A stretch of 64,000 nt of DNA from Methanococcus vannielii SB (GTDB taxonomy: Archaea; AGJL01; Methanococci; Methanococcales; Methanococcaceae): assembly GCF_000017165.1 (NCBI RefSeq), contig NC_009634.1:696249-760248 (forward strand), given 5' to 3'. The notes beneath the pieces were generated by a model. The model saw nothing but the letters and a program-made list of their open reading frames with translations, was not told the origin of the DNA and ran no database searches. This document shows, one piece after another, positions 46,692-50,135 of this stretch. A program made the translations under genes and the position numbers. How positions within the stretch are numbered: position 1 is the stretch's first letter; each line of letters opens with the position of its first letter.

Positions 46692-47936
46692 GTGGCAGAA
46701 TCTGTAACTATTAGCCCCACAACAAGGCATGAGGGGCATGCTAAACTTGTGTTAAATGTTGATGACGAAGGAATAGTAACTAAAGCATTTTACCCAAATA
46801 CCACGCCAGTAAGAGGTTTCGAGACGATGTTGCAAGGAAAACCTGCAGCATTTGGACCTATTGCAGTTATGAGAATTTGCGGTATCTGCCAAGCAACCCA
46901 TGGTATTGCTTCATGTGAAGCTGTCGAAAATGCAATTGATGCAGAAATTCCTGAAGATGGTAAAATCTTAAGAGAATTACTCGGTTTAGGAAACAGGATG
47001 CATTCACACCCATTACATCACTTGTTAATTGCTGATGATTTATTAAAACCTGAAGAATCAGGAACATTAAGAGTTGATGCAATTAAACTAATCCAAAAAA
47101 TGAGAAAAGCTGGACAATTAGTTGTTGATGTAACTGGTGGAGAAGGTATTCACCCGCCAAACTTAGTAGTAGGTGGTATGAGAACAAATATTTCTGAAAG
47201 AGCTAAGGCAAAACTCTACTATGCATGCAGGGAATATGAAAAAGACTGTAACACCATGTTAGAGGTATTAGAAACTTTAATTGAAAGATACTTAGGGGAA
47301 ATTGGCATTCCGGATTTGGGTAAACACGACTACCCATATATTGCAACCGATACCACATTCGGCAATAGGGATGCAATTAACTGGAAAGATGTAACAGAAG
47401 TTCCGGCACAAAGGTTCTATGCTGCATATCCTGAAATTGCAGAAACTGCTACAAACCAGATTCCATTCTATAGAGGAAACCCCGCAGAAGGGGGCCCAAG
47501 AGCAAGAATGGTTAAATACGGAAACTTTAAATCAGGCGGCGGAGCAATGGATCTCAACCTTGCAAGAGCATTAGAAAACTTCGAAGCTGTTAAACGATCA
47601 TTAGAACTCATTGATGAATTAAATATCAACGGTGCTACAAAAATAACTCCCGACTACTCAAAAGCTAAAGAAAGCTTTGGTATCGGAGTACATGAAGCTC
47701 CAAGGGCCACAAACACCCACATGGCTAAAATGGGTAAAGACGGTAGAATTGAAAATTACAACATTATTGCTGCATCAACGTGGAACTTCCCGGCTGTCGA
47801 AAAAGCTATTGAAGGATACCACCACAAATATGCAGAAGTAATTATGAGAGCTTATGATATATGAGCATCATGTGCTACGCACGTCATTGTAAAAGATGAA
47901 CAGACTAAAAAAGTTATAGAAGTAAGAGAATTTTAA
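46692..47936 (+). CDS. fruA: F420-reducing hydrogenase large subunit FruA, selenoprotein (in-frame TGA)
   Basis: [NiFeSe] large subunit that splits H2 for reduction of coenzyme F420. The gene runs through an in-frame TGA at 47862-47864 (Sec391) to TAA at 47936, giving 414 residues. N-terminal RICGICQATHG binds nickel; the C-terminal motif is D-I-Sec-A-S-C-A-T-H (389-397). A 17-residue tail after His397 is what the maturation protease FruD should remove. The start is GTG at 46692, five bases after GGAGGTGA; an ATG at 46659 precedes that site. Evidence for readthrough is the intact nickel motif across the TGA and the SECIS hairpin just downstream. SelB is encoded at 825. Confidence 0.96.
47862..47864 (+). 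other. Selenocysteine codon (TGA) of fruA
   Basis: The TGA occupies the place of the first Cys in the C-terminal nickel-binding motif (DPCxxCxxH in Cys enzymes; here D-I-U-A-S-C-A-T-H). Twenty-three codons with full family similarity follow before TAA, so it is a recoded codon and not a stop. Confidence 0.95.
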
Positions 47937-47951
47937 TTCTTGAAAAAAATG

Positions 47952-47985
47952 GCTTTAAAAGGGAACCAAATGGACCTTTAAAAGC
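47952..47985 (+). promoter_or_regulatory. Archaeal SECIS element in the fruA-fruD intercistronic region
   Basis: The hairpin has a lower stem GCTTTAAAAGG (47952-47962) pairing with CCTTTAAAAGC (47975-47985) with one A-A mismatch. An asymmetric internal loop follows, GAA (47963-47965) on the 5' side and A (47974) on the 3' side. A CC/GG upper stem closes an AAAU loop. The GAA/A internal loop and GC-closed upper stem are the defining features of archaeal SECIS elements. It starts 16 bases after the fruA stop, in the 92-base gap before fruD. It directs SelB to Sec391. Confidence 0.92.
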
Positions 47986-48028
47986 TAAAATGTCTTTCAA
48001 ATAATTCAAAAATTTCAATGGTATTGAC

Positions 48029-48544
48029 ATGGATTATAGTTTAACCCCTTCTTACTTGCTAAAAGAAAATATGGTTCTTGCCTGCGGAAATATACTGTTT
48101 GCAGACGATGGATTTAGTGTACACGTAATCGAAAAACTACACGAAGTACTTACTGAAGAAGAAAAAGAAAATATTGCACTGGTAGATGCTGGAGCAGGGG
48201 CTCCACAACAAGTACTAACCTTAATTGATAGTGAATCAAGGACTAAAAAAATTATTGTCGTGGATATAATCGATTACGGACTAGAACCTGGGGAAATTAA
48301 AATACTTGAAAAAGAAGATCTACCAAAACCCGAACATACTAAACTTGACAGCCACGACTGGCCACTTTCAACTACGCTCTATAGAGTTTGTAGAGATGCA
48401 CCTCATGAAATTGAGTTTAAAGTAATTGGCTGTCAGAAAAAGTATGTTTCAGAACCTGACGTAGTAATTGGGCTATCTGAAGAAGTTCAAAATTCTGTAG
48501 ATCTTGCCGTAGACTTGATACTTTCTGAATTTAGGGGACAATAA
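48029..48544 (+). CDS. fruD: Hydrogenase maturation protease FruD
   Basis: 171-residue endopeptidase that cleaves the FruA tail after nickel insertion. Family motifs: [69 protein letters not shown] and [19 protein letters not shown]. The Asp and Glu/His residues that bind nickel in HycI/HybD-type proteases have counterparts here. It lies between fruA and fruG, in the order fruADGB. A paralogue is encoded at 2346. The ribosome binding site (GGTATTG) is weak, and the SECIS hairpin sits 43 bases upstream. Confidence 0.93.
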
Positions 48545-48566: not shown

Positions 48567-49253
48567 ATGGTAAAAGTTGCCCACGTGCAATTAAGTAGCT
48601 GCTGTGGGTGTCTAGTTTCCCTCGCAGACACCTATGAAAAGCTTTTAGACGTTTTGGGAGCTATTGAATTAGTTTACTCCCAAACACTTGCGGATGTAAA
48701 AGAAGTTCCAGATAATGTTGATATTATATTACTCGAAGGTAGCGTTTGTTTAAGCGACCACCACGCACTTGAAGTCGCACTTGAATCCAGAAAAAAAGCA
48801 AAAATATTGGTTGCTTTAGGGGCATGTGCAGCTAGTGGAAATATTACAAGATTCTGTAAAGGAAACCAGATGTCAAAACCAATTCACGATTCATTTGCCC
48901 CATTAACTGAAGTTGTGAAATGTGACCTTGCAATTCCAGGATGTCCTCCATCACCTGAAGCTATTGTTGCAGTTATTGAGGCAGCACTAAAAGGCGATAT
49001 GGAATACTTAGAACCGTTTGCTGAACTTGCTAAATACGGGTCTGAAGCCTGTGGATGCGACCTACTTGTAAAAGTAATTAATAAGTCACTTTGTATGGGT
49101 TGCGGTTCATGTGCTGCAGCATGTCCAACAAGGGCAGTTTCAATGGATGCAGGAAGGCCGTTAGTTGACAAAGAAATTTGTATAAAGTGTGGTGCATGCT
49201 CAGTACAGTGTCCAAGAATTAGATTCCCTGAATTGATTGGAAATATTGAATAA
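48567..49253 (+). CDS. fruG: F420-reducing hydrogenase small subunit FruG
   Basis: Electron-transfer subunit, 228 residues. The N-terminal [18 protein letters not shown] and [26 protein letters not shown] and [13 protein letters not shown] carry the Cys ligands of the proximal cluster. Two ferredoxin motifs follow: [12 protein letters not shown] (about residue 175) and [12 protein letters not shown] (about 205). It passes electrons from FruA to the flavin of FruB. ATG after GGGAGGAGAAAAGCC, 22 bases after fruD. Confidence 0.95.
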
Positions 49254-49286: not shown

Positions 49287-50135
49287 ATGGATCCCTTTGG
49301 AAAATATATAAAAGCAGTTTCTGCAAGAGCTGCAGACAAAGAGATACTTAAGAAATCGCAAGACGGAGGTATCATTTCTGCCGCATATATTTACGGTTTA
49401 GAAAATGGACTTCTTGACGGCGTAATAGTTGCCGATAAAGAAGACAAATTTACGGCAGTTCCAAAAGTTGCTACAACAAAAGACGAAGTTTTAAGTGCTG
49501 CTGGAACAAAATATACCACCTGTCCAAACCTTTCAGTAATAAAAAGTGCTGTGAGAGAGTATGGGTGTGACAAGATAGGTTTTGTTGGAACTCCTTGCCA
49601 AATTCAGTCAATAAGAAAGGCAATAAAATACCCAATTGGATATAGGCACGTTCCAGACAAAATTGCTTTAATTATGGGTATATTTTGTATGGAAAACTTC
49701 CCATATAATGGTATGAAAACTATCGTTGAAGAGCTTTGTGGAGTTAGAATGGAAGATGTTGTTAAGACGGATATTGGAAAAGGTAAGTTCTGGGTTTACA
49801 CTAAGTGGGGCGACGTAAAAACCGTTGCTTTAAAAGATACTCACCCTTATGAACAAGTTTCATGCCACATATGTATGGACTACACTGCAGAACTTGCTGA
49901 TCTTTCAACCGGTTCAGTTGGTAGCCCTGACGGATGGAGTACAATCTTTGTTAGAACTGGAAAAGGAGACGACTATTTAAACAAGATGATTAAGGCAGGA
50001 GCTCTTGAAACCAGGCTTATTGAAGAAGTAAAACCCGGACTTGACTTAGTTCAAAAACTTGCCCTCCAAAAAAAGGAGAAAAATGCAAAGGAAAGAGAAC
50101 ATAGAAAAGAAATTGGGTTACCACTTCCATATTAA
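49287..50135 (+). CDS. fruB: F420-reducing hydrogenase beta subunit FruB
   Basis: 282-residue F420-binding flavoprotein that reduces coenzyme F420. It starts with [18 protein letters not shown]. Diagnostic blocks are [59 protein letters not shown] and [14 protein letters not shown] Cys pair [15 protein letters not shown] for a 4Fe-4S cluster and [20 protein letters not shown] follow. It closes the fruADGB operon. Confidence 0.95.

Follow-up and report, generated by a model that had tools for sequence, protein, structure and literature searches.

Among the described systems closest to the locus treated here is the fruA SECIS element of Methanococcus maripaludis, which directs selenocysteine (Sec) insertion into a reporter as judged by activity and 75Se, and in which a single A-to-C change in the GAA/A loop abolishes Sec insertion (PMC9622424). 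Systematic mutagenesis of this element was published in 2025 (PMC11881835), after SECIS elements had been surveyed in 2024 across approximately 30 Methanococcales and Methanopyrus genomes (PMC11227280). In a heterologous host, 75Se incorporation depended on the fruA SECIS of M. jannaschii (Wilting 1997 and Rother 2001, both cited in PMC9622424). For M. vannielii itself, selenocysteine was chemically identified in a hydrogenase (Yamazaki 1982, as cited in PMC3439257). No gene sequence existed at that time; the enzyme was very probably the product of the fruA gene of M. vannielii SB described below, which lies in a window of 64 kb, the whole stretch of DNA analyzed here, within a single contig of 1,720,048 bp.

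On the forward strand of the window, fruA (46692–47936) encodes the large subunit of an F420-reducing [NiFeSe] hydrogenase (TIGR03295 frhA, 597.3 bits; curated cut-off 392.5 bits). The reading frame starts with GTG at 46692, behind GGAGGTG, ends with TAA at 47934–47936, and contains an in-frame UGA as codon 391 (47862–47864) within the C-terminal D-I-U-x-x-C-x-x-H motif. Both motifs of the Ni site are present, the N-terminal CxxC (RICGIC) and the C-terminal UxxC (DIUASCATH). The claim of an earlier sequence-only reading that fruA encodes Sec was borne out. That reading had also placed the TGA at the first Ni-site Cys; the codon does occupy a Ni-site Cys position, but Sec391 is the first position of the C-terminal CxxC pair and, with the N-terminal pair lying within MRICGICQATH, the third of the four Ni-ligating positions. 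UGA is normally a stop codon and, taken alone, would truncate FruA at residue 390. Codon 391 might accordingly be a true stop, or a sequencing or assembly error, with the frame beyond it not translated. We regard this as scarcely credible, however, because a single in-frame TGA occupies the same site in all 35 of the 36 Methanococcales genomes that have a full-length FruA, because the codons following it (ASCATH and the C-terminal tail), Ni-site residues included, are conserved in these 35 genomes, and because the paralogue FrcA has Cys at the equivalent position. The exception among the 36 genomes (G031) is 54% complete and has no full-length FruA match. Among the 35, one FruA (G009) shows an additional apparent TAA inside the matched stretch.

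A hairpin at 47950–47987 (+), delimited by motif scan, fold prediction and covariation, occupies the spacer between fruA and fruD. Its basal stem consists of 12 pairs (47950–47956/47981–47987 and 47958–47962/47975–47979) with an A·A mismatch at 47957/47980. The internal loop is formed by GAA at 47963–47965 opposite A47974 and has two G-C pairs on either side, those at the apex (CC/GG, 47966–47967/47972–47973) being two C-G pairs under the four-base loop AAAU. The stem begins 85 nt after the UGA and 13 nt after the UAA, and is followed by the ATG of fruD at a distance of 41 nt; the GAA/A hairpin between the two genes thus stands as originally proposed, but not the 43 bases then given for the distance to fruD. 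Archaeal SECIS elements, as known from the Methanococcales, are characterized by an asymmetric GAA/A loop, flanking G-C clamps, a basal stem of approximately 10 bp, an untranslated location in a gene whose reading frame contains a UGA, and stem covariation among relatives. A further hallmark, the requirement for Sec insertion in vivo, has been shown only for the M. maripaludis and M. jannaschii copies (PMC9622424, PMC11881835). The fruA hairpin shows the loop, clamps and stem, the untranslated location and the covariation. In M. maripaludis JJ the element belongs to the same gene and spacer and has the same GAA/A kink-turn-like loop and two-base-pair C-G apical clamp, with a published UGA-to-stem distance of 88 nt versus 85 nt in the window (PMC9622424, PMC11881835). 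The loop and lower-stem sequences of the two copies differ by compensatory changes, and the in vivo data refer to the M. maripaludis copy. The M. jannaschii fruA SECIS has the same position past the fruA stop codon and the same loop as the window copy. Unlike the latter, the locus that we take to be this M. jannaschii element (L019) has three apical G-C pairs, a mid-stem purine-purine mismatch and a stem that starts directly past the UAA.

The window copy is A/U-rich and carries the A·A mismatch. The minimum free energy predicted for 47945–47992 is -12.9 kcal/mol (z -3.6), an equally good fold being reached by 1 of 200 shuffles, and in longer context the z-score is modest (-1.9 for 96 nt, -0.4 for 124 nt). 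A stringent scan of both strands of the 64 kb for GAA/A hairpins yielded exactly one match, the fruA SECIS, compared to a mean of 0.0 matches in 60 dinucleotide-shuffled windows. Rfam 15 returned nothing above the gathering score for the hairpin and no SECIS family even at E-values up to 10, and consequently does not test this element. A role as transcription terminator was rejected because no T-run follows the hairpin.

A GAA/A hairpin is found 3′ of the fruA stop codon in each of the 35 genomes that have a full-length FruA. Covariation of the two stem arms in related species, on which the sequence-only reading had staked its case beforehand, was assessed for 32 distinct fruA SECIS sequences against 500 shuffles and is present: the covariation score is 0.446 versus 0.172 in shuffled alignments, a value reached by none of the 500, and it falls to 0.135 or less once the structure is slid by one to three columns. 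Paired cells amount to 91.6% (75.3% in shuffles) and doubly changed cells to 47 (13.0 in shuffles), and eight of the ten stem pairs have double changes. The outermost aligned pairs fail in three to nine of the 32 sequences owing to shifts in lower-stem register from clade to clade. In many copies from thermophiles, the basal stem is interrupted midway, at alignment columns 12–13/37–38, by a two-by-two purine mismatch in which GA or AA faces GA; the corresponding positions of the window copy form A-U pairs. Across the relatives, the stem lies 64–96 nt from the UGA and 12–159 nt from fruD, and in many of them it starts directly past the UAA, the median gap in the predicted folds being 0 nt.

As the hairpin lies 41 nt upstream of fruD, it might primarily be a control element of that gene, which acts on translation initiation or on mRNA processing or stability to set fruA apart from fruDGB, its SECIS likeness being secondary. 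Two further observations could be read in this direction. The Shine-Dalgarno match of fruD is weaker than those of fruA, fruG and fruB. Moreover, in M. maripaludis deprived of selenium the fruA mRNA declines more steeply (-7.3 log2) than that of fruD (-5.0 log2), which a stability boundary could explain (PMC11097638). The paralogous frc operon of this genome, however, speaks against such a role: frcA (C1:73029-74234) is followed, as in fru, by an FrhD-type protease gene, but FrcA has Cys in place of Sec, there is no SECIS, and the gap to frcD is just 10 nt. The hairpin is absent from the FrcA paralogues (DPCxxC) in all nine genomes examined although frcD follows; the frcA-frcD gap is usually 10–14 nt, and the three longer gaps (74–106 nt) also lack a GAA/A hairpin. 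Conversely, one relative (G025, locus L033) has the order fruA-SECIS-fruG, with the SECIS intact and fruD missing from the operon; its assembly is fragmented, so this junction serves as supporting evidence only. The rest of that assembly yielded no more than part of an FrhD-like gene, located at the edge of a contig, and one weak, distant match. In addition, the distance from the stem to fruD varies far more widely than that from the UGA to the hairpin, and the predicted fold shows no pairing between the hairpin and the start of fruD. We therefore consider a primary function in fruD control very unlikely. Being absent from the Cys-containing FrcA and kept without fruD, the hairpin belongs to the UGA and not to fruD, and these comparisons gave no sign of a SECIS that serves fruD.

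A different possibility is that the intercistronic SECIS elements of Methanococcus, besides their role in recoding, also set expression of the next gene (fruD, vhuD, vhuG, vhuB) via ribosome spacing or mRNA stability. The unequal loss of fruA and fruD mRNA without selenium is compatible with such a coupling of SECIS and fruD but far from evidence for it, and we consider the idea unlikely. If true, selenium status would be coupled to how strongly the downstream hydrogenase genes are expressed. Immediately ahead of the fruD ATG, at 48013–48031, the sequence UCAAU-GGU-AUUGA could form a tiny hairpin whose loop contains the Shine-Dalgarno-like GGU. Three close relatives retain a similar stretch (TTTCAACGGTATTGATATG), and the stability of the predicted hairpin is no greater than that of shuffles.

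The sequence-only reading had further treated the position of a SECIS between two genes as an anomaly. This view did not hold, as the element occupies the same place in essentially every Methanococcales genome, and three more intercistronic cases occur in this genome. These SECIS-like hairpins lie in the hdrA-vhuD spacer (52 nt before the vhuD start) and in the vhuD-vhuG and vhuU-vhuB spacers (47 and 50 nt, respectively, ahead of the next start), and another lies past fwuB, the final selenoprotein gene in their cluster; all four were identified by motif and position. Since fruADGB is an operon (PMC11097638), the “fruA 3′-UTR” of the literature is the fruA-fruD spacer. The hdrA-vhuDGAUB-fwuB selenoprotein cluster (L044) is located on the minus strand at C1:1003000-1020000. 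Its vhuD gene has two in-frame TGA codons, as does that of M. maripaludis, and its fwuB hairpin is of the GAA/A type, while the fwuB SECIS of Methanococci has been described as AAA/A. With a covariance model built on the fruA SECIS, the fruA copy was the sole significant match in this genome; four weaker matches (E 0.08–4.8) look like chance. The other SECIS elements of the genome required a direct motif scan beyond this model.

The remainder of the operon follows on the same strand with fruD (48029–48544), encoding a hydrogenase maturation protease (TIGR00130 frhD, 192.5 bits; cut-off 135), fruG for the small subunit (48567–49253; TIGR03294) and fruB for the F420-binding subunit (49287–50135; TIGR03289). 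The Sec-specific elongation factor SelB, correctly assigned to 825–2231 from the sequence alone, is encoded on the minus strand and comprises 468 amino acids with a short C-terminal part (TIGR00475, 388.6 bits; cut-off 242 bits). A second gene for an FrhD-type maturation protease (2346–2828, +; TIGR00130, 163.6 bits, above the cut-off) adjoins selB in divergent orientation. The genome also encodes tRNA-Sec (60.8 bits), SepSecS (563 bits), PSTK (410 bits) and a selenophosphate synthetase (SPS) with an in-frame TGA of its own, all above curated cut-offs, so that the archaeal Sec-decoding gene set of SelB, tRNA-Sec, PSTK, SepSecS and SPS is complete. Two fdhA genes with TGA are present as well. 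One of them (C1:1154514-1156509; L062, L063) is split over two frames near model position 480 and hence looks frameshifted, or affected by a sequencing error. A hairpin scan with relaxed loop found no element near either fdhA gene and did not recover the reported 5′-UTR SECIS.

Taken together, we put the probability at roughly 97% that fruA encodes a Sec-containing large subunit of the F420-reducing hydrogenase, that UGA-391 is recoded via the spacer SECIS, and that fruD is initiated separately. With UGA-391 in the A site, SelB and Sec-tRNA(Sec) would insert selenocysteine, the recoding signal being the GAA/A kink-turn-like hairpin 85 nt downstream, which presumably acts through a SECIS-binding factor. 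While the ribosome is at the UGA, the hairpin ahead would be free to fold. Ribosomes that terminate FruA synthesis at the UAA, 13 nt upstream, may touch or briefly melt the base of the hairpin, which would then refold. As the stem starts directly past the UAA in many relatives, we infer that the ribosome most likely to disturb the SECIS is the one finishing FruA and not the one starting fruD. Initiation of fruD would proceed separately from its own start codon at 48029, 41 nt past the hairpin, and the FruD protease is predicted to trim the C-terminal end of FruA. The open-access literature yielded no ribosome-profiling paper on Methanococcus selenoproteins.

The Sec-encoding fruA and its SECIS are confirmed as real, strongly conserved, ordinary for the Methanococcus group and already known. 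Sec-FruA with a SECIS in the fruA-fruD spacer has been studied since the 1980s–1990s and was dissected in vivo in 2022–2025, to which the present locus adds little. A mildly useful result is the comparison, in which the SECIS accompanies the UGA rather than the protease gene downstream. Furthermore, the very short spacing in thermophilic relatives, with a median of 0 nt from stop codon to stem and as few as 12 nt from stem to start codon, bears on how a SECIS and ribosome traffic coexist.
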